NCBI RefSeq assembly: GCF_008806325.1
Contig: NZ_WACR01000003.1
Span: 62,001-126,000, forward strand
Length of the DNA: 64,000 nucleotides
Origin: Salibacter halophilus
Lineage (GTDB): Bacteria; Bacteroidota; Bacteroidia; Flavobacteriales_G; Salibacteraceae
Reading direction: 5' to 3'
Positions within the stretch are counted from its first letter, which is position 1. The number at the start of each line of letters is the position of its first letter. Made by a program: the position numbers and the translations under genes. The notes below the pieces were generated by a model that was not told where the DNA came from, did no database searches, and saw only the letters and a list, made by a program, of their open reading frames with translations. This document shows, in pieces, positions 25,477 through 60,005 of the stretch.

Positions 25477-25670
25477 GTTACTTCCCGATACAAAAAGTAA
25501 CGAGTTTTCTGAACCTACTGCCAGATAAGCAATTCAGGATGTATGTCCTAAATAGGGCAACAACTGGGCAACAAGAAATCATAAGGCTTTAGAAAACAGG
25601 GGATAAAGAAAGGAAAATTAAGGGAGTTCGAGAAATGAATGTTTTCCTAATTCTGGGCTAAAGGTAAGGC

Positions 25671-42730: not shown

Positions 42731-45700
42731 TTAGTTTGTTGTTTGTAAATAGTATTCGAGTTCATAGCGGCTGTCCAGGTAATTGCCCAGGGCATTCCAT
42801 GAATCCACTTCTATGCGGATAGCGTCCCTTATGTTTTGCAAAAAACTTACATAGTCTATTGCGCCTTCTCGGTAAGCCGTTATCGAACCTTGTCTTTGCT
42901 CGCGTGCCAGCGGCAATGCCTGGTCTCGATAGTAAATCCATGAGTTACGCCATTTCAGGTATTCTTCCCGCATGGATTGGTACTCGGCATTGAGTTGTAG
43001 CTGATTTTGCCTGAGATTTTCCGTGGCAATTTCGCGCTGGATTTTAGCCTCTTGCGTACGGCCCAGCTCGGGCCCAAAAAACAAGGGGATTTGTATGCCT
43101 ATTTGGTAGGTGTAAAACCCGGTTTGCCCCCCAACTTCTTGCCAGCCATACTGTCCTTGTAACTTGGGCAAAAACTCCGATCTTCTTTCCTTTATTCGAG
43201 CATCGGCCACTTTTATTTGCTGTTGATACACATTAAGCAAAGGGTGAGTACTTAGGGAATCCAAGTCATAATTAAGGATTCCGGTCAATTGCTCACTGGG
43301 CACATCCGGTACTGTATAAAGGGTATCGCTGACCAGCCATAAGTTGAGCCGCTGCAAAGCGCCCAGGTAATCGCGATAGGCCTGTTCCTTTTGGATGCGC
43401 ACTTCATTGGCCTGGTTTTTAGTGGCCAAATAGGCCAGTTTAGAAGTTTCTTCTACTTCCAATCTCACATCTGCCGCTCGTTCTATATCGGTAAAGAGCG
43501 AATCCAAACGGTTGTACACCTGGTAGGTGTTTTTAGCGGTGTAAACCTGGCCCCAGGCCAACTTCACTTCTCGTTTAAGCTCTGTTAATGACAGGTCGAG
43601 AGCGCTTTCGGCAAGGGCTACCCGTTCCTTTTGCAAGCGCAGTCGTGGAGCAATTCCAAAAACATCAATATTTTGTTGTTGAACCCCTATCCGCGTATAA
43701 ACTCCATCAGTATTGCTGCTTGCTTCTTCCGCTCCCGTGAAAATTTGGGTGTTCCCAAAGTCCCAGGCTGTTTTCTTCAGCGCTGCTTCGCTTTCTATTT
43801 GAAGCCTTTTGGCCTTGATCTGAGGGAAATACTCAACAGCCCGATTTTGGGCATCTTTAAGGGAAATGCTTTGCAAGGTATCCGGGTTTATTCCTTGCGC
43901 CTTTGCAGATTGGGAAAACCCGAGAAAACTACCTAAACCAATAAGTAGAACGATGGTGTTCAGAGCTGTTTTATGCCCCTGGTTTCCGATTTTCTTTTCC
44001 CTGCGTTTCTCAACGAAGGTATAGAGTACAGGCAGTACAACCAGCGTAAGAAGTGTAGCCGACAGCATACCGCCAATTACTACGGTGGCCAATGGCCGCT
44101 GCACTTCCGCTCCGGCAGATGCCGAGAAAGCCATAGGCAGGAAACCGAATATATCCGTGGTTGCCGTAAGCATGATGGGGCGAATCCTTTCTTTGGTACC
44201 GGTCAAAATTCGATCCTTTAAGCTGGTCACCCCTTCTTCTTTGAGGGAATTGAAGCGGTTGATCAGAACCAAACCATTCAATACAGCTACACCAAACAGC
44301 ACGATAAATCCAACACCGGCTGAAATACTAAATGGCATATCTCTCATCCACAAGGCAAAAACGCCCCCTATGGCTGCCAGGGGAATGGCCATGTAGATCA
44401 TAATGGATTGCGAAAATGACTTTAGTGCAAAATAGAGCAGCACGAATATCAAAAAGAGTGCAATGGGCACTACAATAGTGAGCCGTTTTTTGGCACTCTG
44501 TAAATTCTCAAATTCGCCACCATACGTAATATAATAGCCAGATGGCAGATTCAGCTGTTCATCTAATTTGACTTGTATATCATTCACTACCGACTCCACA
44601 TCCCGGCCTCGCACATTTACACCTACGTAAGTCCTACGGTAGGTATTGTCGCGGCTAATCTGCATCGGGCCTGGTTGGTAGCTTATGTCAGCTATTTCTT
44701 TGATGGGAATTTGTGTTCCGTTCTCAAGGTCGATATACAGGGTGCGCAGGTCGTCTATACCCTGGCGGTGGGCCTCATCAAAACGGATGACCAGATCAAA
44801 GCGTTTTTCGCCTTCAAAAATCACCCCTGCCTTTCCACCTGCAAAAGCAGAACTGATATACTCGTTCACCTTTTCAATGTCCAAGCCGTATTGCGCCATT
44901 TTCTTACGGTTATAGCGCACGGTCATTTGAGGCAAACCCGAAGTCCGTTCGGGATTTACATCACCAGCACCCGGCACGGTCTCAATAATATCGGCCATTT
45001 CCTGAACTTTGGTAGCCAATACATCCAGGTCTTCACCATAGAGCTTGACAGCAATGTCCTCACGCACACCTTCCAGTAGTTCATTGAATCGAAGTTCCAC
45101 AGGTTGTGTGAACACAAGGTTGACACCAGTCAACCGCTCTTCAAGCAGTTCCTTGATTTCGTCAATAAGCCCTTCCTTCGTTTCTGCCGTAGTCCACTTA
45201 TCCCGGTCTTTTTCCAGAATGAGGTACATATCGGCAATATCCATTGGCATAGGGTCGGTAGGAATGTCGGCCACACCAATGCGGGCTGTTACCGTTTTGA
45301 TTTCAGGAAAATTCTCCAGTAAAAGGTTCTCAATTTTATAGGAAACATCTGTTGCCTCACTCAGCGAACTTCCCGGCCTTATCAATGCCTGCATGGCGAT
45401 ATCACCTTCATCCAGTTGGGGTACAAATTCTCCTCCCATTCGGGAAAAGGTATAGCCCGCTATGCCGAGCAGAACAACAGCAACGATAATTACCATTGTT
45501 TTAAACCGGAGTGCACTTTTGAGTAAGGGCAGATAGGCCCAATGAATGCCACCAATGACTTTATCACTGATTTTTTCCAGCCAGCGTTCAAATCGCCCAA
45601 ACCAGTTCTTTCTGTTTTGGATGGGTTTCATGAAAAGGGCAGACATCATGGGAACGTAAGTGAGGCACAAGACTATAGCACCTATCATGGCAAATCCAAA

Positions 45701-47143
45701 GGTATAGGCCATGGGCTGGAACATTTTACCTTCCACACCTGTGAGGAAAAGAATAGGGGCAAATACAATCAGGATGATAATCTGTCCGAAAAAGGCTGAA
45801 CCCATCATTGTGCTGCCGGACTCATAAGCCACCTCATCCATTACACTCTGGTTGAACTTGATTTTCCCTGACCGAATACGTTTCTGAATTTCGTAAACTG
45901 TTCCTTCAATAATGATCACTGCCCCGTCAATGATGATCCCGAAGTCAATAGCGCCCAGGCTCATCAGGTTGGCCCAAACGTTAAACTGCTTCATCAGAAT
46001 GAAGGCAAAGAGCAGAGAAAGCGGAATGGTAGTGGCCGTAATGAGACCCCCGCGCAAACTTCCCAGGAGGATTACCAGTGCAAATATTACGATCAGTGCG
46101 CCTTCAATCAGGTTGTTCTTTACCGTATCAGTGGTTCTCCCTATAAGTGCGCTACGGTCGATAAAAGCATCAATCGTGAGCCCTTCGGGAAGCGATTTTT
46201 CTACTTCCTCCATGCGCTCTTTCACGTTTTGGATAACGGCATTAGGGTTGGATCCCCTCAGCATCATTATTATGCCTCCTACGGCTTCTTTACCATCACG
46301 GGTGAAAGCCCCGTAGCGCACCTGGTGACCAAAATGAACTTTCTCGGCCACGTCATCAATGGTGATGGGAATGCCATTTTCGTTTCGGATTACAATACTC
46401 CGTATGTCGTCCAGAGAGCGCACCAGTCCTTCCCCGCGAATGAAATTGGACATCCGGTTTTTTTCGATGTAAGCACCGCCAGTATTTACGTTATTTCGGG
46501 CAAGGGCACCGTAAACCTCTGAAATGCTCACATCCATGGCGTTGAGCTTTTCAGGATTAATAGCCACTTCGTATTGTTTGATGTAACCACCAAATGAGTT
46601 GACCTCCACCACACCATTAAGCAAGGTGAGTTGTCTTTTTACGATCCAATCCTGAATGGTTCGCAGTTCCATTGGACTGTAGACAGTGTCATAACCCGGT
46701 TTCGGTTGGATGGTATATTCATAGATCTGGCCCAAGCCTGTAGAAATAGGACCCATAGTTGGGTCGCCAAACTTTTCGGGGATGGTCTCCTGTAATTCAT
46801 TCAGTTTTTCCTGTACCAGTTGGCGGGGCAGATAAGTACCCATATCGTCTTCAAAAACGATGGTGACGACCGACAGGCCAAACCTTGAAACGGAACGGAT
46901 TTCTTCCACTCCGGGAAGATTTCCCATGGCCAGTTCCACCGGATAAGTGACAAACTGCTCGATATCTTCGGTAGCCAGGTTTTCGGATACGGTCATTACC
47001 TGTACCTGGTTGTTGGTGATATCCGGCACCGAACCTAGGTTAACCGTGGACATGGAGTAGATACCCACTCCTATGAGGGCCAACGTGAGCAGGCCCACAA
47101 TAAATTTATTCCTTATGGAAAATGAAATGATTTTGTCTATCAT
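42731..47143 (-). CDS. CzcA-type RND pump fused to a TolC-type channel (1470 aa)
   Basis: Residues 1 to ~1045 are a complete HME-RND pump: helix 1, 'VAINPEKLNAMDVSISEVYGAL', the TM4 proton-relay signature 'LGAIDFGIIIDGAVII', and the C-terminal helix block ending 'YTFVEKRREKK'. Residues ~1085-1470 are a TolC-like outer-membrane channel with two coiled OEP repeats. Between them, at ~1059-1084, is a typical signal peptide ending in S-A-K-A-Q. Such fusions occur in Bacteroidota. The retained signal suggests cleavage after translation into two proteins. Start ATG at 47143. Confidence 0.92.
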   Translation of the reverse strand: MIDKIISFSIRNKFIVGLLTLALIGVGIYSMSTVNLGSVPDITNNQVQVMTVSENLATEDIEQFVTYPVELAMGNLPGVEEIRSVSRFGLSVVTIVFEDDMGTYLPRQLVQEKLNELQETIPEKFGDPTMGPISTGLGQIYEYTIQPKPGYDTVYSPMELRTIQDWIVKRQLTLLNGVVEVNSFGGYIKQYEVAINPEKLNAMDVSISEVYGALARNNVNTGGAYIEKNRMSNFIRGEGLVRSLDDIRSIVIRNENGIPITIDDVAEKVHFGHQVRYGAFTRDGKEAVGGIIMMLRGSNPNAVIQNVKERMEEVEKSLPEGLTIDAFIDRSALIGRTTDTVKNNLIEGALIVIFALVILLGSLRGGLITATTIPLSLLFAFILMKQFNVWANLMSLGAIDFGIIIDGAVIIIEGTVYEIQKRIRSGKIKFNQSVMDEVAYESGSTMMGSAFFGQIIILIVFAPILFLTGVEGKMFQPMAYTFGFAMIGAIVLCLTYVPMMSALFMKPIQNRKNWFGRFERWLEKISDKVIGGIHWAYLPLLKSALRFKTMVIIVAVVLLGIAGYTFSRMGGEFVPQLDEGDIAMQALIRPGSSLSEATDVSYKIENLLLENFPEIKTVTARIGVADIPTDPMPMDIADMYLILEKDRDKWTTAETKEGLIDEIKELLEERLTGVNLVFTQPVELRFNELLEGVREDIAVKLYGEDLDVLATKVQEMADIIETVPGAGDVNPERTSGLPQMTVRYNRKKMAQYGLDIEKVNEYISSAFAGGKAGVIFEGEKRFDLVIRFDEAHRQGIDDLRTLYIDLENGTQIPIKEIADISYQPGPMQISRDNTYRRTYVGVNVRGRDVESVVNDIQVKLDEQLNLPSGYYITYGGEFENLQSAKKRLTIVVPIALFLIFVLLYFALKSFSQSIMIYMAIPLAAIGGVFALWMRDMPFSISAGVGFIVLFGVAVLNGLVLINRFNSLKEEGVTSLKDRILTGTKERIRPIMLTATTDIFGFLPMAFSASAGAEVQRPLATVVIGGMLSATLLTLVVLPVLYTFVEKRREKKIGNQGHKTALNTIVLLIGLGSFLGFSQSAKAQGINPDTLQSISLKDAQNRAVEYFPQIKAKRLQIESEAALKKTAWDFGNTQIFTGAEEASSNTDGVYTRIGVQQQNIDVFGIAPRLRLQKERVALAESALDLSLTELKREVKLAWGQVYTAKNTYQVYNRLDSLFTDIERAADVRLEVEETSKLAYLATKNQANEVRIQKEQAYRDYLGALQRLNLWLVSDTLYTVPDVPSEQLTGILNYDLDSLSTHPLLNVYQQQIKVADARIKERRSEFLPKLQGQYGWQEVGGQTGFYTYQIGIQIPLFFGPELGRTQEAKIQREIATENLRQNQLQLNAEYQSMREEYLKWRNSWIYYRDQALPLAREQRQGSITAYREGAIDYVSFLQNIRDAIRIEVDSWNALGNYLDSRYELEYYLQTTN

Positions 47144-47838: not shown

Positions 47839-49290
47839 TCAGAATGAGGTTTCTTCAACTTTTAGAGACGCTTTTATTTCTTCGCGAATATCCTTTCTCA
47901 AGTGATACCAAAATCCTTTCTTGACCGGGTTGCCTAAGGTGGCTAAGCGTTTGTGACAATAGGAAGCCTCTGTATCGGACAATTCCAACCTTCTTTCAAT
48001 GAGGTATTCCCGGTATTTGTAAACGGCTGAGATCAACTTATGATCCTTGCTCTTGGCAAAGCTGATAAAGCTTTCAAAAATAAGGAGCCGCTCTAATTCT
48101 TCTGTTAACTCCATCAATTCTAAGCCTTCGGCTTCATGAGGGGCCTTTACTTTGCGGACTATCCCCTCTTCATCCTCTACTATAATTTCTTTGGAAGCAG
48201 CTGTGCCTTTCCGTTTTTTAACTCCTTCCAATGTCCATTCGCGGTCTACGTAGCTTAATCCATGTTCAAGCCATAAGCCAGCATTATCCAGAACAAGTCC
48301 GAATTCCTTTCCTGGGGCAGGGCGCATACACCGTCCTACTTGCTGAAGGTAGAGAACTAACGATTTTGTTGGCCGGGCAAGCTGCACGGCTTCACAATCA
48401 GGAACATCAAACCCTTCAGACACGATATCGACATTGGAAAGGATGAGGATTTCCCCTTTTTTGAATTTCTCGAGAATAGACTTTCGTTCTTCTTTTGGTG
48501 TATTAGCATCCACATGGGCAGCGGCAATACCCTCGCCATTGTAACGCTGTACAATGGATTTGCTATGTTCGACATCAACAGCAAAGACGATAGTCTTTTT
48601 TCCGTTTGCTTTGTTCTTGTAAGTCTTCACCAAGTCAGCCATTAAGTGATTGGCTAACATTACGTTTCTCAGCATCTGAAGGTCGTAATCCCTCATCTTC
48701 TTTTTCACTTTACTGAGATCAGGAATAGCTCCCACGAGATGTTTGATTCTGGCTAAATATCCTTTTTCAAAAAAGTAACTGAGTTTGCCCAGAGGAATAA
48801 GAATTTGGTACTGATCATCGAAGCCTTCACCGTTTAATCGGACAGGATTAGCAGTCACTCCAAGAAATCGTGCATCAGGGTAAATTTCCCAGAGCTTCTT
48901 GTAGGTGGCGGCTTTTGAGTGGTGGCATTCGTCAATAATGACAATATCCGCAGGAGGAAATTTGCGTCTCGAAAGGGTTTGAATACTGGCAACCTGTATG
49001 TTCTTATCAGGGTCAGGCTTTGTTCCGGCCAGAATTACCCCAACTTCCACTTCAAACTTATCCTGGAGCCTTTCAACAATCTGCTCTACCAATTCTTTCC
49101 TATGGACTACAAGAAGTACTTTCTTCTTTTTTAGATGGGCTTTCCTGACTATTTCAGAAAACACATGAGTCTTTCCAGTGCCGGTAGGCATCTGGAATAG
49201 AACGTTCATGAGGTTCTTGCGCTTCGGGTCCCAAGCCTCAAAAATTTGGGTAATGCCGTTTTTCTGATATGGTCTGAGCTGGTCAGGCAT
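47839..49290 (-). CDS. DEAH-type superfamily 2 helicase (RadD-like)
   Basis: 483 residues. Q-motif-like 'LRPYQKNGI', Walker A MPTGTGKT (34-41), motif II DECH (120-123), motif III region 'GVTANP', and motif VI 'QQVGRCMRP' in the second RecA domain. The C-terminal ~110 residues are helical, as in RadD/YejH-type helicases. Expected to unwind or translocate on DNA using ATP. Its start codon touches the stop of the Argonaute gene with no gap, so the two are coupled and very probably work together. Confidence 0.9.
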   Translation of the reverse strand: MPDQLRPYQKNGITQIFEAWDPKRKNLMNVLFQMPTGTGKTHVFSEIVRKAHLKKKKVLLVVHRKELVEQIVERLQDKFEVEVGVILAGTKPDPDKNIQVASIQTLSRRKFPPADIVIIDECHHSKAATYKKLWEIYPDARFLGVTANPVRLNGEGFDDQYQILIPLGKLSYFFEKGYLARIKHLVGAIPDLSKVKKKMRDYDLQMLRNVMLANHLMADLVKTYKNKANGKKTIVFAVDVEHSKSIVQRYNGEGIAAAHVDANTPKEERKSILEKFKKGEILILSNVDIVSEGFDVPDCEAVQLARPTKSLVLYLQQVGRCMRPAPGKEFGLVLDNAGLWLEHGLSYVDREWTLEGVKKRKGTAASKEIIVEDEEGIVRKVKAPHEAEGLELMELTEELERLLIFESFISFAKSKDHKLISAVYKYREYLIERRLELSDTEASYCHKRLATLGNPVKKGFWYHLRKDIREEIKASLKVEETSF

Positions 49291-51348
49291 TTACAAAAAC
49301 CACAAATTATTCTCCCCGAACTCAGGCACCTTATCACTTTTGAAATAAGGAAATACCTCGGCTACCATTTCGGGGTACTTGATGGTGACCGGTAGGTTCT
49401 GTTGCTTCACAGACTTCCAGTACATACGGCTAAATTGATAAACCTGGTCGATCAATTCCTTTATCGTTTCATCATCATTGAGCAAATTGCTCTCCGAAGC
49501 GGAGAAGGTAAGTTTGATGGGGAAAGGCCAATCGCTTATCCGGGAATTGATCTGGTAGCGGGTATTGTTAAAGAGCAGGTACTGATCTCTTCCGATAGGA
49601 AGGATCGTACCGCTCAAGGGCAACATGCTTTCATGTTGCATATTGAAGGCCACCAGGTCTTTTTCCTCCGTCTTATTGATGGTTATCACGTAAACAGGGA
49701 TATTTACATTCAGCTTCTCAAGCATTTCCACTATTGGCTCCAGCTCCCTTTCGCTCATCTTCTTGTAGAAATGAATGATCAGCCGCTTGGTGTTTTCATG
49801 CTCCACCATGTATTTGAGGACGGCTTCCCGAATGGAGCCAGCTAACATCTTGGTCTGGTTGGCTGAAAAGCATTTGAAGCCCTGAAAATCGCCTTCGTTG
49901 TTGAAGCAGAAGGCACTCCCAACATAGCGGCATTTATCAGTGTATGAGTAGAAAGCTCCGACACCTACAACCAGTTCGTCTTTCGGCTCACGCTTCAAGC
50001 GCCAGGGAATGCCATCGAGCTTTGCGAGAAGGGCAGAGGAAATATTGGTCAGGTGAAAGTTATATTTCGGTTTGCCAATATTGCCTTTATAAATTACCTG
50101 TGAAGTAATTCCTGGCTCGTTCTTGAGCAGCATTTCCTTCAAGCGGGCATAGACCAATCGTTTCTCAGGGTCTGGGTTGTCCTTTGAAATGGGGCTTACA
50201 TAAATGGCCAAATACCTTGTGTTAGGCACGGCCTCAAAATCTTTCAAGAACTCTCGGGTCTGATCTAAAACGGTATCGATGCTATCAAAGGCCACGCTCT
50301 TATTCTCAAGCATTTCAAAGTTCTGCCTTAGCACTTCATCCATAGCTGGAAAGGTGTAGCCATTGTAGGTGTAGCCTTCAGTGAGATATTGGTATAGACT
50401 CTTGACCTTGCCCAACCTTTCGGATTTGGGATAGATGAAGAAGAACTTACAATGGCCCCCGTGAGGTGGGCTGTATGGGCCTTTGTCAATGAATGCTTTG
50501 GGGTCAATTCCAACTTCTTCGTTACCAAATTCGAGGTTGTTAGAATCATATTTGGTGCGAAGGATGCGTTTGGGGGGCATGTCAATAAATCCTTCCTGGA
50601 ATGGAATGATGGACTTGAAGCCGCTTGTGTTTAGGTATTTATTGTAAAAGCCTCTGATCTTTTGAAAGTAGTCTTTGTACTTGGTGCCGAACTTGGGCTT
50701 ATCCCAAGGAATTTCCAGAAAGGTTTTTAACTCATTGCTGAGCTTGGGGAAAATCTGATCGTGATTTTGCTTTATCTCTGGAGACAGGTATTCGTACTTG
50801 TAAACTGCTTTGTTGTACACCACCTTGTTGAGCTTTTCGGTGGGGAAGTTCTTTAGCTCCTTGAGGCTCTTATTGAGGACTTTGGTTGTTCCATCATAAG
50901 AAACCAGCAATTCAGGGCTGTCGGAAACCCTTTTGAATTGAACGCGAAGGGAAAAAATCTGAAAAGTGTCGTATTTGGAAGTACTCAACTTGCTATCCCT
51001 AAACCAGACCTCCACATCTCCAACGAAATCATACTGGGCCACATCTGCAATAGTTAGGAAATGCTTGCGGATCTGATGTTTGTAGTAATGAGCCGAAAAC
51101 TTGGCCGATGAAGCAAGTTGTACCGTTGCTTTATAGTCACAATCTTTAGTTGTTTCAAAGTTGGTGTAGAGGTAGGAGATATCCTTTAGCTCATCCTCGT
51201 GCTCTTCCCAAAGTATCTTGGGGTATTCGGCTTTATGAAGAGGGGCGTAGCTCTCTATTTTCTCCTTATAGAAGCCGCACTCTATTTCATCAACGGGGTT
51301 TTCAAAGTTTAATATGTTGAGCTTTAGTTTCTGGTCTGGCATAGGCAA
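49291..51348 (-). CDS. Long prokaryotic Argonaute, PIWI active site apparently lost
   Basis: 685 residues. The MID domain (~370-445) shows 'IYVSPISKDNPD' and 'TSQVIYKGNI' (Gln/Lys of the guide 5'-end pocket), followed by 'ALLAKLDGIPWRL', the hallmark of the MID-PIWI border. PIWI (~455-685) ends 'YQFSRMYWKSVK', then 'LPVTIKYPEMVAEVFPYF'. Active long Argonautes carry a DEDD/H tetrad; here the first Asp region reads GVGAF (462-466), the second reads IIHFYKK (524-530) where HRDG-like is expected, and the last reads YPEMV (658-662). Slicing is therefore unlikely. N and PAZ-like regions fill residues 1-~290. Lies 6 bp after hsdR. Confidence 0.88.
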   Translation of the reverse strand: MPMPDQKLKLNILNFENPVDEIECGFYKEKIESYAPLHKAEYPKILWEEHEDELKDISYLYTNFETTKDCDYKATVQLASSAKFSAHYYKHQIRKHFLTIADVAQYDFVGDVEVWFRDSKLSTSKYDTFQIFSLRVQFKRVSDSPELLVSYDGTTKVLNKSLKELKNFPTEKLNKVVYNKAVYKYEYLSPEIKQNHDQIFPKLSNELKTFLEIPWDKPKFGTKYKDYFQKIRGFYNKYLNTSGFKSIIPFQEGFIDMPPKRILRTKYDSNNLEFGNEEVGIDPKAFIDKGPYSPPHGGHCKFFFIYPKSERLGKVKSLYQYLTEGYTYNGYTFPAMDEVLRQNFEMLENKSVAFDSIDTVLDQTREFLKDFEAVPNTRYLAIYVSPISKDNPDPEKRLVYARLKEMLLKNEPGITSQVIYKGNIGKPKYNFHLTNISSALLAKLDGIPWRLKREPKDELVVGVGAFYSYTDKCRYVGSAFCFNNEGDFQGFKCFSANQTKMLAGSIREAVLKYMVEHENTKRLIIHFYKKMSERELEPIVEMLEKLNVNIPVYVITINKTEEKDLVAFNMQHESMLPLSGTILPIGRDQYLLFNNTRYQINSRISDWPFPIKLTFSASESNLLNDDETIKELIDQVYQFSRMYWKSVKQQNLPVTIKYPEMVAEVFPYFKSDKVPEFGENNLWFL

Positions 51349-51354
51349 TCATTT

Positions 51355-54300
51355 TTATTTGTGCGTAAAATGGTCGGCCAATAGCTCCGCCTGTTTAAGC
51401 ACAGTTTCAATAGCTTGCGGCTGCTTATCAGGGGGATAGCCGTATTTATTGAGCGTCCTGCGTACCAATACCATAAGTTTAGCGCGAACGCTTTCTTTTA
51501 TCGTCCAATCAATTGTTGCGTTGTTCCTGACCTTCTCTGTGATTTCCCGTGCAATCATCCTCAATGTATCATCCCCTAATACCTGCACCGCACTGTCATT
51601 AATTTCGAGTGCATCATAAAAAGCCAACTCGTCTTCATTTAAGCCCATTTTCTCACCGCGCTTGTCGGCAGCTCTTATCTCCTTGGCCAGGTCAATCAAT
51701 TCCTGAATGATTTCTGCTGTAGTCAGAAGACCATTCTGATACTTCTTAATGGCTGATTCGAGCATTTCAAGAAGCTTCTTGCTCTTGACCATATTGTGCT
51801 TTGTCCGCACCCGGATTTCATCATTCAGGAGCTTCTTCAGGAGTTCAAGCGCAAGGTTCTTGTGTTTCATTCCCTTGATCTCCATTAAGAAGTCTTCACT
51901 GAGAATAGATATTTCGGGCTTCTGAAGTCCTGCTGCATCAAAAATGTCTACCACCCCATCAGAGCTAAGGGCTTGGTCTACCACTTGCTTTATAGCGGAT
52001 TCCATTTCAGCATCCGAACGACCACCGGAGGTGGGAGCATCAAACTTCACCAAACGAGCTTTTACTGCCTGAAAGAAAGCCACATCGTCTTTCACTTCCA
52101 GTGCCCTTTCATTTGGAACAGACAGAGCAAAGGCTTTACTCAGAAGTGTAACCTCCCTAATAAACCGTTCTTTTCCCTTGTCCAATCCAAGTATGTGTTC
52201 TTCAGCTTGGAGGATAATCCCTAATTTTTCCTTCGGTGAAACTTTGAAAAAGCGCTTATAATTAAAGGTGGTGGCATTTTCATAGTAAGCCTGTGGCTCC
52301 TCTACAGTTATTTCGTTTTGAGAGCGGCTTTGCTCCGCGAACATTTGCCGCACCACCTCCAGCTTTTCCATGAGCATCTCTACGGCCTTTTCTTGTGTTT
52401 CAGTAGGATCACCTTTTCCTCCTGAATCGGAGTAGAATGCCAATGCTTTTTTCAAGTCTGTAGCAATGCCCAGATAATCCACTATCAAGCCGCCAGGCTT
52501 GTCTTTAAATACCCGGTTCACCCTTGCAATGGCTTGCATGAGGTTGTGACCCCGCATGGGTTTGTCCACGTACATCGTGTGTAGGCTTGGTGCATCAAAA
52601 CCTGTGAGCCACATATCGCAAACAATAACCAACTTGAGTGGATCATCAGGATCTTTCATTCGGTTAGCAAATGCCTGACGTTCCTTTTTAGTGGTGTGGT
52701 GCTGCTCCATTTCAGGGCCATCAGCACTGGATGCCGTCATTACTACTTTTATGGCTCCTTTAGTAAGGTCTTTTTCATGCCAATTGGGGCGACATTTTAT
52801 TATTTCAGTATAGAGAGCAGCAGCAATTCTTCGGCTCATGCTGACGATCATTCCTTTACCCTCAAAGACCTCCTGCCTTTTCTCAAAATGCGTGACGATA
52901 TCGCTGGCAAGGTTCTTTAACCTGCTAGGGTGACCAACAATGGCCTCCAGCTTCGTCCAGCGGCCTTTTGTCTTTTGCTTTTCTGTGAGGTCGTCTTTTT
53001 CAAGCTCCTGATCAAGTTCCTCAATGATTCGTTTCCCTTCTTCATCAAGGTTGACCTTGGCCAATCTGCTTTCATAAAATATCCGCACGGTGGCACCATC
53101 TTCTACTGCATCCGAAATGTCATAGATGTCAATGTAGTGGCCGAAAACTGCGGGAGTGTTGCGGTCTTCTGCTTCTACAGGAGTGCCTGTAAAGCCCACA
53201 TAAGTAGCATGGGGTAAGGCATCACGCATATATTTCGCAAAGCCGTAGGCTATGCGCTGGCCTATAACCTCTTTAGTTTCCTTGTCTTTTTCTTCAATTA
53301 CTTTAGCCTCAAAGCCGTATTGAGTTCTGTGGGCTTCATCAGCTATAACTACAATATTCCTGCGGGTGGAAAGCTGGTCAAACTCCTCTTTCTTTCGTCC
53401 TGTTTTGTTTCCGTCATCATCGAGAATATCATCAGGAAGGAATTTCTGAATGGTAGTAAAGACGATACCACCGGAAGCAACTTTGAGCAGTGATTTCAGA
53501 TGCTCGCGATCTGAGGCTTGCACCGGTTCCTGCCTGAGTAATTGCTTTGAAGCGGCAAAAGTGTCAAAGAGCTGATCGTCCAAATCATTGCGGTCTGTTA
53601 TCACTACAATGGTTGGATTGTCCAATTCCTGAACCAACTTACCTGAAAAGAAGACCATCGAAAGCGATTTCCCCGAACCTTGCGTGTGCCATACTACTCC
53701 ACCTTTCTGATCACCTTCGGGCTGAGAAGCGGCTTTAGCGCTGGTAAGAGCCTTGTTTACCGCAAAGTATTGATGGTAGGCGGCAAGCTTCTTAATCGTT
53801 TCAATTTGAATGATCCCTGTTTTGGGATCTTCCTTTCGATCTTTTTCAAAAACAATAAAGTTCCTGACAAGGTCTAAGAGCGTGCTCCGGGTGAGCATCC
53901 CTTTTATGGTGGTTTCAAGCTGTGGCTTGAATTTGGAAGCATCTTTGGTTCCGTCCACAGACTTCCAGGACATAAACCGACTAAGGCCAGAGGATAAGGT
54001 GCCCGTGCGGCACTCGTGCCCATCTGAAATTATGCAGAAGGCATTGTAGTTAAATAGAGAAGGAATGGTGGCTTTGTAGGTTTCAATCTGGTTGAATGCC
54101 TTCTTTATGGTGGCATTTTCATCGGCTGCACTCTTTAATTCCATGACCACCAGGGGCAGGCCATTTACAAACAGGATGATGTCAGGCCGCTTGGTGTTGT
54201 TGTTTTCAATTATGGTGAATTGATTGACTGCAGAGAAAGTATTGTTTTCAGGGTTGTGGAAGTCTATCAACCAGCAATAGTCATTCTTTTCCTCCCCATT

Positions 54301-54609
54301 TTCGCGGTACGTAACCGGAACGCCATCGGTAAGGAGGCGGTGAAAATCTTCGTTGTTTTTGAGGAGGTCTGGAGACTGAATGCGCTCCACCTGCTTTACC
54401 GAATCAACAATAGCATCATGGGGGAGGTGGGGGTTAATCCTGATCAGTGCTTCTTCTAATTTGGAAGAAAGCACTACATCACTGTAATCCTTGCGCAGCG
54501 GTGTTTCACCGTCTGCAGCAATGGATGGCCCATGATAGTATTCGTAGCCCTGATCCTCGAGTTCTTCCAGGGCGTAAAGCTCTATGTCTGATTCGGTAAT
54601 TTTTCCCAT
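51355..54609 (-). CDS. hsdR: Type I restriction enzyme, R (motor/nuclease) subunit
   Basis: 1084 residues. PD-(D/E)xK nuclease is visible as 'RPDIILFVNGLPLVVMELKS' (142-159 core). SF2 translocase motifs: Walker A HTQGSGKS (308-315), DEAH (422-425), 'VGFTGTPVE', and 'QAIARVNR' in the second RecA domain. A long helical C-terminal part (for HsdM contact) follows. All catalytic motifs look intact. It is separated from hsdM/hsdS by an HNH endonuclease and a toxin-antitoxin pair, and heads its own unit with Argonaute and helicase. The annotation is firm; which HsdM-HsdS it works with is inference. Confidence 0.95.
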   Translation of the reverse strand: MGKITESDIELYALEELEDQGYEYYHGPSIAADGETPLRKDYSDVVLSSKLEEALIRINPHLPHDAIVDSVKQVERIQSPDLLKNNEDFHRLLTDGVPVTYRENGEEKNDYCWLIDFHNPENNTFSAVNQFTIIENNNTKRPDIILFVNGLPLVVMELKSAADENATIKKAFNQIETYKATIPSLFNYNAFCIISDGHECRTGTLSSGLSRFMSWKSVDGTKDASKFKPQLETTIKGMLTRSTLLDLVRNFIVFEKDRKEDPKTGIIQIETIKKLAAYHQYFAVNKALTSAKAASQPEGDQKGGVVWHTQGSGKSLSMVFFSGKLVQELDNPTIVVITDRNDLDDQLFDTFAASKQLLRQEPVQASDREHLKSLLKVASGGIVFTTIQKFLPDDILDDDGNKTGRKKEEFDQLSTRRNIVVIADEAHRTQYGFEAKVIEEKDKETKEVIGQRIAYGFAKYMRDALPHATYVGFTGTPVEAEDRNTPAVFGHYIDIYDISDAVEDGATVRIFYESRLAKVNLDEEGKRIIEELDQELEKDDLTEKQKTKGRWTKLEAIVGHPSRLKNLASDIVTHFEKRQEVFEGKGMIVSMSRRIAAALYTEIIKCRPNWHEKDLTKGAIKVVMTASSADGPEMEQHHTTKKERQAFANRMKDPDDPLKLVIVCDMWLTGFDAPSLHTMYVDKPMRGHNLMQAIARVNRVFKDKPGGLIVDYLGIATDLKKALAFYSDSGGKGDPTETQEKAVEMLMEKLEVVRQMFAEQSRSQNEITVEEPQAYYENATTFNYKRFFKVSPKEKLGIILQAEEHILGLDKGKERFIREVTLLSKAFALSVPNERALEVKDDVAFFQAVKARLVKFDAPTSGGRSDAEMESAIKQVVDQALSSDGVVDIFDAAGLQKPEISILSEDFLMEIKGMKHKNLALELLKKLLNDEIRVRTKHNMVKSKKLLEMLESAIKKYQNGLLTTAEIIQELIDLAKEIRAADKRGEKMGLNEDELAFYDALEINDSAVQVLGDDTLRMIAREITEKVRNNATIDWTIKESVRAKLMVLVRRTLNKYGYPPDKQPQAIETVLKQAELLADHFTHK

Positions 54610-54698: not shown

Positions 54699-54727
54699 AA
54701 AACCGTTCAGCAAACCTGAGCGGTTTT
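54699..54727. terminator. Hairpin terminator between higA and hsdR
   Basis: AAAACCGTTCAG, loop CAAAC, CTGAGCGGTTTT: 12-bp stem with one G-T pair, T-rich on both sides, in the gap between the antitoxin stop and the hsdR start. It should separate the HigBA unit from the hsdR-Argonaute-helicase unit. Confidence 0.75.
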
Positions 54728-54766: not shown

Positions 54767-55855
54767 TTAATCAAATTCCACTTTCTCAAAGAATTGTCTT
54801 CCCTGAGAGTGGCGTACTAATCCTTTATGTTGCAACCTGCCAACAATAATGGCAGGGTGTGTATTAAATTTCTCCGCAAACTCATGGATCATCTCTTCAT
54901 CCAGTGGAGCAGCGTCAATGATGGTTTGCTCTTCCTCTTCGGTCAAAAGCCACTTGGCCGCAAAGTCATCAGCTTCCTGTTCCTTCTCCATATCCTTATC
55001 TGAATATTCCACATCTTCAAGAAAAATGTCCTTTTTGCGGTGGAGGACAATGTGCCCGGCTTCGTGAAAGAAAGTAAACCAAAATATATCATTTCTCTTG
55101 TGACGGCCTGTAAGCTGAATTAAAGGGTTGTCATTAATCCAGCGGGTTGAGCCATTGAGAGGGGCTTTAGGCAAACATGGCGTTTGCACCACTTTTACTC
55201 CAGCCTCAGCGCACAAGGATTGAAGCTGATCAAAGAAGTCATCCGGGTGTTTGGCCATCAGTGTCTTGATCTTTTCCAACTGCGCTTTAAATACCTTTTC
55301 ATTGTATTCCGCTACTTCTAATTGACCCGCTTGAAGTTGGCCCATACGTAGCCATGCTGAAATTGCATAAGGCTGGCTGGTGCTGGCCAGGGATATACGG
55401 AAAGCAATTTTCAATTGTTGCTTAAAATAGTATTGCTCCCATGCTCCATGATTGGCAAAACCAAAGAACTCTAAGAGTTCTGCAGCTTTGTCTTTCCAGG
55501 TGGTTCGCTTAGTAATCCAGCCACAACGAGCCATTGCAGCCACGGGGAATGATTTCGCCCATTCCACTGCCGCTTCAATGGCTTCTTCATGCTTCACCCG
55601 TGCTTTGTACTCATCATAGCTTTTTTGATGGTCCATCCAGAAGTGTGCGGGAATCTTGGTTACATTTTCAAACTGGATAGCCATATCAGGCGTAATGGAG
55701 CTTTCGCCTTTCAATACAGCGATAATGGTTTTCTCAGGCTTACCAACGCGAATGGCAAATTCCTTCGGGCCCATGCCCATTTCTTCCAGTTTCTCTTCAA
55801 GGGTTTCTCCGGGATGGGGTCTGGATTGCGGGAAGTATTGATTTTGCTGTGCCAT
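54767..55855 (-). CDS. higA: HigA-type antitoxin fused to an ImmA/IrrE metallopeptidase domain
   Basis: 362 residues. HTH of the HigA/XRE type at ~15-70 ('HPGETLEEKLEEMGMGPKEF', 'GKPEKTIIAVLKG'), a helical middle, then a zinc peptidase site 'FHEAGHIVLH' (HEAGH 264-268) with a downstream acidic 'EQEADDFAAKWLL', the ImmA/IrrE pattern. Such fusions can both repress and be regulated by proteolysis. The start is 2 bp after the toxin stop, matching the HigB-HigA order. Confidence 0.88.
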   Translation of the reverse strand: MAQQNQYFPQSRPHPGETLEEKLEEMGMGPKEFAIRVGKPEKTIIAVLKGESSITPDMAIQFENVTKIPAHFWMDHQKSYDEYKARVKHEEAIEAAVEWAKSFPVAAMARCGWITKRTTWKDKAAELLEFFGFANHGAWEQYYFKQQLKIAFRISLASTSQPYAISAWLRMGQLQAGQLEVAEYNEKVFKAQLEKIKTLMAKHPDDFFDQLQSLCAEAGVKVVQTPCLPKAPLNGSTRWINDNPLIQLTGRHKRNDIFWFTFFHEAGHIVLHRKKDIFLEDVEYSDKDMEKEQEADDFAAKWLLTEEEEQTIIDAAPLDEEMIHEFAEKFNTHPAIIVGRLQHKGLVRHSQGRQFFEKVEFD

Positions 55856-55857
55856 GT

Positions 55858-56199
55858 TTACTTCTCTTTGTGATAGTTGATAATCTCTATTACTTCAACT
55901 CCAACAATTTCGAGCCACACATACTGACCGTCTTCATTGGTAGGGATGGGGTCTTCATGTGGTTCAAAGATCAACCGGTAAGGTTGGTCGAGATCACATG
56001 CCCATTGCCCTTTCCGATCATTTCTCAGTTCGTGATAATTGCCCGGCAAGTCACGAACGTCCTCCAATGTAGTTGCATCATCTAACTGGGCTAATCTTCT
56101 CCTGAGCACTTTAGCTCGTACTTGCCCCAGCTCTTTCTGCATCTTACGGTCATTGTTGGCGAGCATCTCTAATTTCTTGTTGGCAAAAGTAATGTTCAC
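55858..56199 (-). CDS. higB: HigB-type RelE/ParE-superfamily toxin
   Basis: 113 residues, first gene of the pair. 'LGQVRAKVLRRRLAQLDDATTLEDVRDLPGNYHELRNDRKGQWACDL' and 'QPYRLIFEPHEDP' fit the RelE fold: two helices, then the strand block with the basic 'R-L-I-F' catalytic face. HigB toxins cut mRNA on ribosomes. Lies in the same direction as hsdS and the HNH endonuclease gene, 67 bp downstream of the latter; may stabilise the restriction locus as an addiction module. Confidence 0.85.
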   Translation of the reverse strand: MNITFANKKLEMLANNDRKMQKELGQVRAKVLRRRLAQLDDATTLEDVRDLPGNYHELRNDRKGQWACDLDQPYRLIFEPHEDPIPTNEDGQYVWLEIVGVEVIEIINYHKEK

Positions 56200-56266
56200 T
56201 GCAAAAGTAAGGATTTTTTAATTAACAGAAAGTGTAAGTTGTAGAAAACAAGTTAACCAGAGCGCT

Positions 56267-57421
56267 TTAACCATCAGGAAAATTCAGTTCATAATCTGAC
56301 ATGTCATCGGATATGCGGATCCATACAGCTCCATTGGGTGACCTGATAAATTTTTTGTCAGTACTTATCCAGCCAAACGTCTCATAGCGATCTTCAAGAA
56401 GTATGGCAACCTTCATTTCCATTTCCTGTAACTCATATAGCGAAAGGCATTCCCTTTGCCCTAAATATGTGTTGCAGACAGCATGGCCCCAGCCTACGTT
56501 TACGGGTATGTGAGTAAGTGAGTGATGGAGAAGCGGTTTCAAGTGAAAGAGATTTACAACTGTAGAACGAGTGGAGTCTATTAGCTGCATCGAAGCATTA
56601 GAAAGTGCATCTGCTTCCTCAAATGAAATTGTATCGTGAAGCTCTGAATATCTAAGAATTTTTTGACATAAAGGGCAGCAGGTTAAGCCTCTTCGCATTG
56701 TGCCGTTTTTCTCAAATATGGAAGTATCTATAAGATTTTCATCTGATAAAATTGCAATAAGATGTTCTGCTTGACTAGTAGTATAAGGACTGTTGTATGT
56801 ATTTATGATGAAATAGGCTAGAAGACACTTACATAAGTAATTGGTCTCCTTGTCAGCATACTCTGCAGCAAAAATTCCCTGTGGAGGTCCTTCGTCCTTC
56901 TTTTTATCACTTCCCGATGTAGATAGTCTCAGAAGATAGTGACCTACATCTTGGACATGCTTACCTCGCTTTTGAACTTTACTTCCATCATGTTCTAAAT
57001 GCCTAATAGACCATGATGAAAGTGGAGGAAATGATTTAAAACTTTCCCATGTCCTGTAAAGGACATAGGCATTATCGCCAACTACAACCTTACTTTCTGG
57101 GTCCGTAAATTGAGCCTTAGGTGTATGTTTGGACTCAAAGTACTGTTCGGGGTATAGGCGAATAACATACCCGTCTTTGTAAAGCGACAAGCTTTCATGT
57201 GAAAGTTGTTCGTACGGGATTACAACCTGGTTGTTACGATTGACATGATTCTGATAACCTCCTTTCTTTCCACCACGAGGAGTAGCAAAACCAGCCTTAG
57301 AAATTTTATTTTTGTCAACCTTTTTAAAAAATCCCCAAACATTGGGATGATTTTTATGGCTTCCTTTATGCCCTTTTAATAGTCGACAGCTTTCTTCTTC
57401 ACAAATTTCTTTGGTTAGCAA
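56267..57421 (-). CDS. BstXI-type HNH restriction endonuclease
   Basis: 384 residues. N-terminal zinc-finger-like C7, C12, H18, H22; then 'KISKAGFATPRGGKKGGYQN' and 'HVNRNNQVVIPYEQL', which I recall from BstXI-like enzymes. In the C-terminal half, 'TCCPLC' (247-252) supplies a metal pair, and 'FHLKPL' (His293), 'PVNVGWGHAVCN' (Asn308, His313, Cys316) form the H-N-H core. The gene starts 5 bp after hsdS. BstXI uses a methylase plus a separate S subunit, the same three-gene order as here. Family naming is from recall; the HNH core is seen directly. Confidence 0.75.
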   Translation of the reverse strand: MLTKEICEEESCRLLKGHKGSHKNHPNVWGFFKKVDKNKISKAGFATPRGGKKGGYQNHVNRNNQVVIPYEQLSHESLSLYKDGYVIRLYPEQYFESKHTPKAQFTDPESKVVVGDNAYVLYRTWESFKSFPPLSSWSIRHLEHDGSKVQKRGKHVQDVGHYLLRLSTSGSDKKKDEGPPQGIFAAEYADKETNYLCKCLLAYFIINTYNSPYTTSQAEHLIAILSDENLIDTSIFEKNGTMRRGLTCCPLCQKILRYSELHDTISFEEADALSNASMQLIDSTRSTVVNLFHLKPLLHHSLTHIPVNVGWGHAVCNTYLGQRECLSLYELQEMEMKVAILLEDRYETFGWISTDKKFIRSPNGAVWIRISDDMSDYELNFPDG

Positions 57422-57426
57422 AATGA

Positions 57427-58128
57427 TTAGACTTTTAGGGGTTCGATAGGTTGGTTTACGTTGATAGCACCAGAAAGGAGTAACAATGTGATCTTATCAA
57501 GTAACTGCTCCAGTTTCCGGTTCTGATCTCTTAGTTCGTTTAATTCTTCAGGAGATGAGTGAAACATCTCCAATGGAACTGCTAGCTTAACCTGGAATTG
57601 AAGAGCTTTTAGAATGTTGATAATGTGATCTTGTGTAGATAGGCTTGGAACGGCAACCTGAAACTCAAATAGATCACCTTTATACAGCTCATCATAGGTA
57701 GACCCATTTGCAATTGCATGAAGATATTTTGTGTTTGCCTTGAGCCAATAAGCCAAATACAAGGGACGAATCTTGCTATTTACTTGAAAGTTAAGGAAGC
57801 CTTGATTAGTTGCCATTGGTGTCGTGTTAACGGCTACCAAGCCAACTGGAGCCCTCTTTGTTAACAAAACTGAGCCAGCAGGCATGAGTTTAGCTGCGGA
57901 TTTTGATAAGCCTAACTCACTAATCTTTCTCTCGGTTGTTGATACGTATAACTGAGCATTGTCAGACAACTCCTTTGGCGTTAACCATGGAATATCACCT
58001 TCCCAGTAATCCTTATTCCGTGTGCTAGGGGTTCCACCACTATCCACTGAGGCGATAATTCCTTTCGTGGATGGCGATAAATCATATACTGGCCAGTTTT
58101 GCTTGTTTGGTAAATATGGTTCAGCCAT
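57427..58128 (-). CDS. hsdS: Half-length type I-like specificity subunit (single TRD)
   Basis: 233 residues, about half a normal HsdS (~400-450). One target-recognition domain ('[19 protein letters not shown]', '[11 protein letters not shown]', '[17 protein letters not shown]', 'NQGFLNF') is followed by one conserved coiled-coil (ending '[23 protein letters not shown]'). Such halves dimerise and read a palindromic split site, in line with a BstXI-like (CCA-N6-TGG type) system. Start overlaps hsdM by 8 bp. It could serve both the HNH enzyme and HsdR. Confidence 0.9.
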
Positions 58129-59716
58129 TATAAAGTTCTTTAAAGAGATTTACTGAATTTTCTGTGATTTTCACGATCTGCTCGGAGCGACTGTTAATCT
58201 CACCGATTTCCTGACTTATCCAATCCCATGAAATGTCCTCAACTTCCATTTTATTGAATCCTACGTAACGACCTGGGACTAAGGCGTTATTGTGGCTTTT
58301 AATTTCATTAAGTGTGGCTATACGGCAGAATCCAGATTCATTTTTGGGAGACTTCGATTTTGTTCTGAATGAATGGTAGGCATCTGTTATTCGTGAAATG
58401 TCCTGTTCAGTGAGAATGCGTTGAGTTCTATCTACTAGAGTGCCTAATGATCGTGCATCTATGAATAGTACTTCGCCAGCTCTATTGCGATATTTTGAAT
58501 CGCTTTTGTTTTTAGCGATAATCCAGATTGAAACAGATATTTGAGTATTGTAGAAAAGTTGAGTGGGTAATTTAACAATACAGTCGACTAAATCATTTTC
58601 GATCATATTTGCACGAATCTTGCCTTCTCCTGATGCATTCGAAGAAAGTGCTCCATTGCTTAACAAAAAGGCAGCATATCCAGAAGGTGCTAAATGATAA
58701 ATAAAATGCTGAATCCAGGCGTAGTTAGCGTTAGATGATGAGGGAACACCGTATAACCATCTGCCATCTGTCCTTAACAAATCTCCACTCCAGTCACTAT
58801 CATTGAACGGAGGATTAGCAAGAATGTAGTCTGCTTTGAGATCTTTGTGCGCGTCATTCAAAAATGATCCTTCGGTATTCCATTTGACATTTGAACTATC
58901 GATTCCTCGGATGGCAAGATTCATCTTACATAGACGCCATGTCGTCTGATTGCTCTCTTGCCCATATATCGAAATACGATCTTTGGGGTCAATTTTTAAG
59001 TTATTTTTTCCAGATGCGGAGTAGTGATCCGCATGAGAGGCTACGAACTTTTCACTCTGAACAAACATTCCACCAGAACCACAACAAGGATCAAATACCC
59101 TTCCTTCATAAGGTTCAATTAGTTCGACTAAGAGTTGCACAATGCTCTGTGGAGTGTAAAATTGCCCACCTTTTTTACCCTCAGCTATAGCAAATTGGCC
59201 TAAGAAATATTCATACACCTGACCCAATAAATCTTTTCCAGAGCTTTGAGTAGTATTTTTATCGGCCATAAATTCAATTGTGCCGATTATATCAATTAGT
59301 TGACCAAGGCTCTGTTTATCAAGGTTTTCGCGAGCATATACTTTGGGAAGAACACCTTTGAGTGAGTTATTGTCCTTCTCAATAGCCTCCATAGCTTCAT
59401 CAACTTCTTTACCTATTGAAGGCTGTTTGGCTTTTGACATTAAGTATGGCCAACGGGCTTGGGGAGGCACATAAAAAACTTTTTCAGCTAAATACTCATT
59501 TTTATCTTCTGGGTCGGCTCCCTCGTACTCGCCAGCTCCTTCTTGAAGCTTCTCATGGAGTTCTTTAAAGGCATCTGAAATGTATTTTAAGAAGATAAGC
59601 CCCAGCACCACGTGCTTATACTCCGCAGCATCCATATTCTTACGGAGTTTATCAGCAGTTCTCCAAAGTTTATTCTCTATGGAGTCAAAATGATCCTTAC
59701 TTTCTGTTTCAATCAT
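58121..59716 (-). CDS. hsdM: N6-adenine DNA methylase, HsdM type
   Basis: 531 residues. N-terminal helical HsdM domain ('[20 protein letters not shown]'), SAM motif FDPCCGSGG (208-216) preceded by '[20 protein letters not shown]', and catalytic NPPF (301-304), the gamma-class N6-adenine layout. All motifs intact, so the host target should be methylated. Start overlaps the controller gene by 8 bp, so controller, M and S are translated as one unit. Confidence 0.96.
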
Positions 59717-60005
59717 TAGATGTTTCTTTTAATCGTTGTTCCACATAGCGCATGGCCTCCATAGCCAGCGGTTCATGGGAAATGTCATCTGCAATTTTAT
59801 CTGCCAGCCAAAGGAGCAGTAATTCCTTTTCAGGTACTTTCAAAATAGAGGAAAGGCGGTTCACCTGATCGCGGTTGGCCTTGCGCTCACCTCTTTCCAG
59901 TTTGCTTACGAGGGCTGTGTCCACTTCCATAGCCGCTGCTACTTGCCTAAGCAATAAGCCTCTTGATTCACGGAGTTCTCGCAGCCTGGCACCCAAATAG
60001 TTCAT
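59709..60005 (-). CDS. XRE-family HTH controller of the restriction operon
   Basis: 98 residues. The HTH is '[20 protein letters not shown]', then '[20 protein letters not shown]', followed by a short helical tail. Size and place (directly before the methylase) match C-proteins that time expression of restriction genes. A 17-bp near-palindrome precedes it and probably is its own operator. Confidence 0.88.

Follow-up and report, generated by a model that had tools for sequence, protein, structure and literature searches.

The window, as we call the whole 64,000-nucleotide stretch of Salibacter halophilus DNA analysed here, carries on its minus strand, in reading order, an HTH gene (59709-60005), hsdM (58121-59716; PF02384, PF12161), hsdS (57427-58128; a half specificity subunit of 233 aa with a single TRD and one PF01420 match), a gene for a BstXI-family endonuclease (56267-57421; PF09552 at 2.2e-10 and PADLOC REase_II, PDLC03441, at 7.1e-136), higB (55858-56199), higA (54767-55855), hsdR for the type I restriction subunit (51355-54609; PF04313/PF18766/PF11867, TIGR00348), a gene for a prokaryotic Argonaute with a PIWI domain (pAgo; 49291-51348; PDLC02385 at 4.8e-254, PF02171) and a RadD-like helicase gene (47839-49290). 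The higBA pair thus lies between hsdS and hsdR, on the same strand as both, and its two ORFs are separated by 2 bp. The higB gene starts with GTG and encodes a HigB/RelE-fold toxin of 113 aa, and higA encodes an HTH antitoxin of 362 aa fused to an ImmA/IrrE (M78) peptidase domain. The first-pass annotation had placed such a pair upstream of hsdR and co-directional with it, with which the ORF calls and the matches to PF05015, TIGR02607 and PF06114 agree. It had also described two halves of a restriction locus with an HNH endonuclease upstream of the pair. The halves turned out to be hsdM-hsdS on one side and hsdR on the other, all of one type I family, with hsdR as the 3′ neighbour of a slot that the BstXI-like gene and higBA share; the endonuclease belongs to the BstXI family, and its HNH-like motif was seen by eye only. 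The hsdM of the window is 59-65% identical to those of the ten pair-linked hsdR loci (see below) that hold one.

One hsdM and a single-TRD hsdS thus adjoin two nucleases (56267-59716), the BstXI-family enzyme and the type I HsdR, and it is possible that one methylase serves both cutters. The BstXI-like gene was present in 1 of 395 genomes of the phylum, the window's own. Further along, an ORF of 1470 aa (42731-47143) resembles, by eye, a CusA/CzcA-type RND pump fused to an outer-membrane TolC-type domain.

HigB matched the HigB-like toxin family PF05015 at 9.1e-7 (29.7 bits, cut-off 27), and its residues H56, Y109 and H110 were invariant in an alignment of 27 rows. The best PDB matches of its AF2 model (pLDDT 85.6) were structures of P. 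vulgaris HigB (E 2.1e-5), ribosome complexes among them, and the titles of the matched entries name Y91A and delta-H92 variants; from the conserved C-terminal YH we read Y109/H110 as the counterparts of Y91/H92. In HigA, residues 12-85 form the HTH domain (55601-55822; TIGR02607 HigA antidote, 53.4 bits, cut-off 47.7) and residues 216-335 the peptidase domain (54851-55210; PF06114 Peptidase_M78, 6e-9), with the zinc motif HEXXH, here HEAGH, at residues 264-268 (55052-55066). H264, E265 and H268 were invariant in three alignments of 12, 35 and 29 rows, which overlap in membership. The best PADLOC match of HigA was PD-Lambda-2_B (PDLC03982) at 4.6e-39, over residues 5-344, and the RmrA profiles matched weakly, at 1.8e-9 at best. 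A Foldseek search with its AF2 model (pLDDT 85.2) returned HigA antitoxins with a best E of 1.2e-3 and, weakly, the CapP peptidase (5.5e-3). Since the HigB model finds P. vulgaris HigB as its best structural match and HigA keeps an intact HEXXH motif, the pair is more than a chance match, and both proteins look functional. Features of a HigBA-type II toxin-antitoxin (TA) system are present: a toxin-first operon, a RelE-fold HigB with conserved catalytic-type residues and the HTH of HigA. The HigA protein had one match in its own genome at E <= 0.001. ImmA and RmrA are precedents that would fit the suggested sensing of damage or phage by its M78 domain.

Which of the two proteins is the toxin could be approached from their occurrence. 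In the phylum sample all 46 HigB places had HigA no more than 500 bp away, but HigB was missing from 3 of the 26 close HigA places, all three under one genus code and possibly the result of one event; this favours HigB as the toxin. At the cut-off used, 27 of all 73 HigA places had no HigB match, and these were mostly distant ones. Three Chlorobiaceae copies of HigA-M78 (L225, L232 and L240) stand without a recognisable HigB, and a relaxed search of their contigs did not find one. The polarity might be reversed, HigA-M78 being a toxic protease and HigB its neutraliser, as overexpressed B, the peptidase protein of PD-lambda-2, is reported to be toxic and to be rescued by A (PMC9519451), and HigA matches the profile of that very protein. 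HigB, however, has kept its fold and catalytic-type residues, and the skewed occurrence just described also speaks against such a reversal, which we consider quite improbable.

Upstream of higB we found candidate elements of a self-regulated promoter. The Bacteroidota -7 box, TACTTTTG (56202-56209, minus strand; pattern TAHHTTTG), lies at -10 from the higB start codon, and just upstream of it is a palindrome, TTACA-N5-TGTTA (56223-56237, minus strand), a probable HigA operator. Among the 12 window genes checked, higB alone had the palindrome or a box at -10. Of 81 loci compared (the window included), 74 have higB by tblastn and 65 had enough sequence for the control region to be read. The box was at -10/-9 from the higB start codon in 55 of these 65, against 2 of 777 control ORFs, which were called mechanically, each being taken to begin at the earliest start codon downstream of a stop. 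The palindrome, T[T/G]ACA-N5-TGTWA, lay at this promoter position in 48 of the 65, against 0.51 per mononucleotide-shuffled set. A longer form of the operator pattern occurred in the genome once exactly and once more with a mismatch. The more distant HigBA clade has other palindromes, many of them, by eye, of the TTAACC/GGTTAA type, as would be expected if the HTH of HigA reads them. The higB start codon was GTG in 47, ATG in 17 and TTG in 3 of 67 genes. In Flavobacterium johnsoniae transcripts are reported to start 4-5 nt past the box (PMC6847099), and by this spacing the higB transcript is predicted to start at or just past the third base of its own start codon, so that the mRNA might be leaderless or might lack the start of the toxin gene; leaders shorter than 10 nt are reported for about 3.7% of cases in Bacteroides thetaiotaomicron (PMC7366714).

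At the other end of the pair, higA and hsdR are separated by 157 bp containing a terminator-like hairpin (54699-54727, placed on the minus strand). Folding of the 157-nt gap gave z = -2.72, and 3 of 200 shuffles folded equally well. The first-pass annotation had proposed a terminator after higA, and a hairpin is there; its 12-pair stem, however, was listed for the plus strand only, and read along higBA the hairpin contains a single C.A mismatch and is followed by UUUUUAUUCUUU. A terminator at this position is plausible. Because of the separation and the hairpin, read-through into hsdR may be weak in the window.

Comparison of related loci showed where the pair begins and ends. Between L201 and L200 the similarity covers the pair, starting 47 bp ahead of higB and ending 28 bp beyond higA, and one unrelated piece of 283 bp. 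L210 and L213 share the pair stretch only; as the L213 sequence begins near higB, this comparison shows the 3′ edge alone. A third comparison, of L176 with L142, found hsdM, hsdR and part of hsdS in common at 80-94% DNA identity, with the pair in L176 at the place of a Shedu gene in L142. The pair thus resembles a mobile cassette, about 1.5 kb long, that comprises operator, promoter, higB and higA. We also fetched hsdR loci without a known pair (40 of 77 places, two known pair carriers being left out). None of the 40 had higBA between hsdS and hsdR (L133 shows no upstream gene); the slot held varied genes instead. Six of the 10 slot genes scanned matched named defence families, namely Hachiman HamB, TIR/ThsB-like, SIR2-pAgo, HEC-09, Shedu SduA and NsnA/GmrSD-like; the other four were an SLFN-AlbA gene (with a weak pAgo-profile match), a PDDEXK_3 gene, an IS200-type transposase and one without a match. 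Among the slots of L122-L161 at least one gene, that of 677 aa at L160:2851-4884, had no family match. The hsdS/hsdR slot of this hsdR subfamily therefore merits attention in the search for new defence genes.

The surroundings of the locus suggest a larger mobile unit. Just beyond the window end, a tyrosine recombinase gene adjoins the 3′ end of an mnmE-like gene (both recognised by eye; L275:773-2480), and a 19-mer from this mnmE-like 3′ end recurs with one mismatch at 25478-25496 (minus strand) of the window, where 0.01 such matches were expected. These observations point to a putative island, some 40 kb long, that used mnmE as its integration site and carries all the genes discussed as well as metal-efflux genes. 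No exact 12-mer att repeat was found near 47-48 kb; a 13-mer at 35.1 kb, from a search of the whole window, was taken as chance, the candidate at 25.5 kb being better, and no tRNA that could serve as the integration site was found in the window or L275.

HigA relatives (E <= 1e-20) occurred in 60 of the 395 genomes of the phylum sample, which includes the window's own genome, yet in none of 34 other genomes from its genus and family; the pair therefore probably moves horizontally. Copies were found in 54 of 72,556 plasmid and 4 of 50,697 phage records, all of these below 60% identity, and in 13 viral contigs (58% at best); one 201-bp plasmid query had no match. For the comparison of loci we used the best 80 of 308 HigA relatives from the genome scan. 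They come mostly from Bacteroidota, with a few from Ignavibacteriota, Chlorobiota, Spirochaetota and Pseudomonadota and one from an Atribacterota MAG.

In 14 of these best 80 relatives the pair stands upstream of the window's hsdR subfamily (51-70% identity) on the same strand. The gap between higA and hsdR is -8 to +35 bp in 11 of the 14; it is 451 bp in L211, and two ORFs (L174) or one ORF (L181) intervene in the others (these gaps, like those to pAgo, depend on mechanical ORF calling, in which each ORF begins at the earliest start codon that follows a stop). In the phylum sample, 3 of the 73 HigA places (the window included) were less than 2 kb from one of the 77 hsdR places, and 23 genomes had both genes; from about 0.2 hsdR per genome of about 3 Mb we estimate that chance would give well under 0.1. 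A pAgo gene directly follows the pair in 4 of the best 80 relatives (L170, L183, L189 and L209). The pAgos of these four are 29-48% identical to that of the window, with which the one of L189 shares its PADLOC profile; in the window itself pAgo comes after hsdR, and the RadD-like helicase after pAgo. Other neighbours include DarT and DarG genes adjoining the pair's place in L225, genes in L232 that cluster with these two, and HEC-09 and PDC-S42 genes in L175 and L173; the scan of neighbours for defence families covered 10 genes, 5 of which had no match. Neither this hsdR subfamily nor pAgo was linked in 62 of the best 80 relatives, a few of which have other R-M genes nearby and at least two of which (L182 and L208) have a contig end right after higA, so that any linked gene would lie out of view. 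No third gene shared downstream of the pair was found among the best 80 of the 308 relatives.

We then asked of two trees, both quick builds with SH-aLRT support and no bootstrap, how often the linkage has changed. On the HigA tree (79 ingroup rows, namely the window and 78 of the 80 loci, the short rows L220 and L227 being dropped) the hsdR-linkage label needs 11 changes, of which at least 6 are forced by strongly supported branches; shuffled labels needed 13.9 on average, and 9 of 500 shuffles as few as observed. The sister of the window on this tree, L162, is unlinked to hsdR. The HsdR tree has 15 rows with the pair and 39 counted as without it, L133 among the latter although its slot is out of view; it includes L207, a fragment covering 18% of columns, leaves out L126 as too short, and drew a program warning of long branches joined among unlinked rows. 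Here the pair label needs 9 changes, at least 7 of them forced, against 13.4 in shuffles, 2 of 500 of which needed as few. HigA and HsdR distances of linked loci were weakly correlated (r = 0.48, P = 0.018, n = 12). Because the label partly clusters on both trees and the distances correlate, if weakly, part of the linkage is inherited, yet it has been gained or lost at the slot many times, each change being readable as a gain or as a loss, with no direction distinguishable. A single ancestral insertion is supported by neither tree, given the changes that are forced.

The first-pass annotation had proposed that the pair either stabilises the locus or acts as a backup that fires on an attack on the restriction genes, and had named as refuting evidence related loci in which the pair never adjoins such genes. 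That outcome did not occur: comparison of homologous loci bears out the linkage as real and recurrent (14 of the best 80 relatives besides the window, 11 of the 14 adjacent, and at least 6-7 label changes on well supported branches). Either role, stabiliser or backup, would fit. It does not make the pair a dedicated part of the R-M system: as 62 of the best 80 relatives show no linkage to this hsdR subfamily or to pAgo, and the slot also takes unrelated genes, coupling to R-M is optional. We rejected the idea of an obligate R-M part on the same count and on the absence of the pair from the 40 fetched hsdR loci.

Could the pair then be plain selfish addiction, the loss of the cassette or island freeing the toxin and the slot being a recombination-tolerant landing site with no link to restriction? 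The patchy occurrence in the phylum, the position of most copies among the best 80 outside the R-M slot, the putative mnmE-integrated island around the window copy and the cassette's own promoter box would all suit this explanation. However, defence genes occupy the slot and several other neighbourhoods of the pair, and a conserved peptidase motif answers no obvious need of plain addiction; we regard this as possible, though on the unlikely side. Less probable still, indeed very improbable in our view, is a guard in the manner of PrrC, where HsdR/HsdMS complexes would silence the pair and phage anti-restriction proteins would release HigB. For PrrC it is reported that the linked type I enzyme keeps it silent and that an anti-restriction peptide of the phage activates it (PMC2610378), DarTG2 is reported from the same hsdS/hsdR slot (PMC12255303), and hsdR is directly adjacent to the pair in the 11 relatives above. 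But most of the best 80 relatives carry the cassette without this hsdR, so silencing there cannot depend on hsdR, whereas PrrC orthologues are described as always linked to type Ic R-M (PMC2610378).

The explanation that we favour, with moderate confidence, is that higBA is a mobile, self-regulated HigB/HigA-M78 defence TA cassette, residing in a defence-cargo slot between hsdS and hsdR and backing up restriction. The sequence basis for this consists of the intact genes, the conserved palindrome and box, the discrete edges, the repeated linkage to hsdR and the diverse defence genes of the slot; the linkage by itself could also come from a recombination hotspot, with no functional coupling involved. 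The best reading of the pair itself, judged from its sequence, is a two-gene abortive-infection TA resembling RosmerTA and PD-lambda-2B. HigB would, by family, be a ribosome-dependent mRNase. HigA would bind HigB and would also use its HTH to occupy the palindrome at the promoter, so that toxin and promoter are both kept down. A phage- or damage-made signal would act on the M78 domain and HigA would be inactivated by proteolysis; freed HigB would then cleave mRNA on the ribosome and abort the infection, while derepression would increase the transcription running on into hsdR, which the autoregulated promoter of the cassette may also drive. The cassette would thus back up the restriction of its own operon, acting like RosmerTA and PD-lambda-2 from a position like that of DarTG2.

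A further elaboration, which we consider unlikely, is that the HigA-repressed promoter serves the next defence gene, hsdR in the 11 adjacent relatives and pAgo in 4. Loss of HigA, triggered through M78, would then let HigB fire and switch on the effector at the same time, which would make the cassette a phage-inducible counterpart of the C proteins known from type II R-M systems. As the -7 box places the predicted transcript start inside the higB start codon, transcripts from this promoter would yield antitoxin and effector with little or no toxin, the toxin coming mainly from read-through of the upstream operon. If true, this would explain antitoxin excess in a toxin-first operon.

Under the favoured explanation of a defence TA cassette, what matters more generally is that such a cassette, with its own operator and promoter, has entered or left one type I R-M slot repeatedly in Bacteroidota and Ignavibacteriota. 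Two questions thereby become directly accessible to experiment: does a TA pair lodged in an R-M operon regulate the restriction subunit, and by what means is the toxin kept in check where its gene comes first in the operon?

Several known systems share traits with the window pair. RosmerTA (RmrT/RmrA) likewise combines a toxin with an antitoxin carrying an ImmA-type peptidase, often with an N-terminal HTH (PMC10440598), whereas the window pair lies inside a type I R-M operon and its HigA fits the RmrA profiles (1.8e-9 at best) far less well than PD-Lambda-2_B (4.6e-39). PD-lambda-2 (Vassallo et al. 2022, PMC9519451) has the same gene order, a HigB-like A followed by the HigA-peptidase protein B, to which the window HigA is a near full-length match. 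We nevertheless rejected PD-lambda-2 proper: the window HigB, HigB-like by Pfam only, had no match to the A profile at E <= 10, nor had any protein of the genome at E <= 1, and no PD-Lambda-2_C, which is required for defence in that system, was found in the whole genome at E <= 1. In the RRDM island of EPEC, DarTG2 sits between hsdS and hsdR, the slot taken by the window pair, and the authors regard the site as a potential recombination hotspot; its toxin and antitoxin are, however, unrelated to HigB/HigA-M78, and the promoter of that island is described as repressed by RptR, the product of its first gene, whereas the predicted promoter of the window lies inside the cassette (PMC12255303). The anticodon nucleases PrrC and RloC are also translation-blocking toxins encoded in or linked to type I R-M loci, but theirs is a different toxin, the silencer of PrrC is the R-M enzyme rather than the product of an antitoxin gene (PMC2610378), and an invariable type I linkage such as that of PrrC is absent here, with 62 of the best 80 relatives lacking this hsdR or pAgo nearby. 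Fusions of COG2856 and Xre paired with RelE toxins, the gene-pair type of the window, have been predicted to be TA systems (Makarova 2009, PMC2701414), and the available sections of that work describe neither a link to an R-M slot nor a shared operator. Our search of the open-access literature found no description of HigB/HigA-M78 within the slot of a type I R-M operon; TA systems and toxins in type I R-M loci, and ImmA-type antitoxins in phage-defence TAs, are already known (PMC12255303, PMC2610378, PMC10440598).
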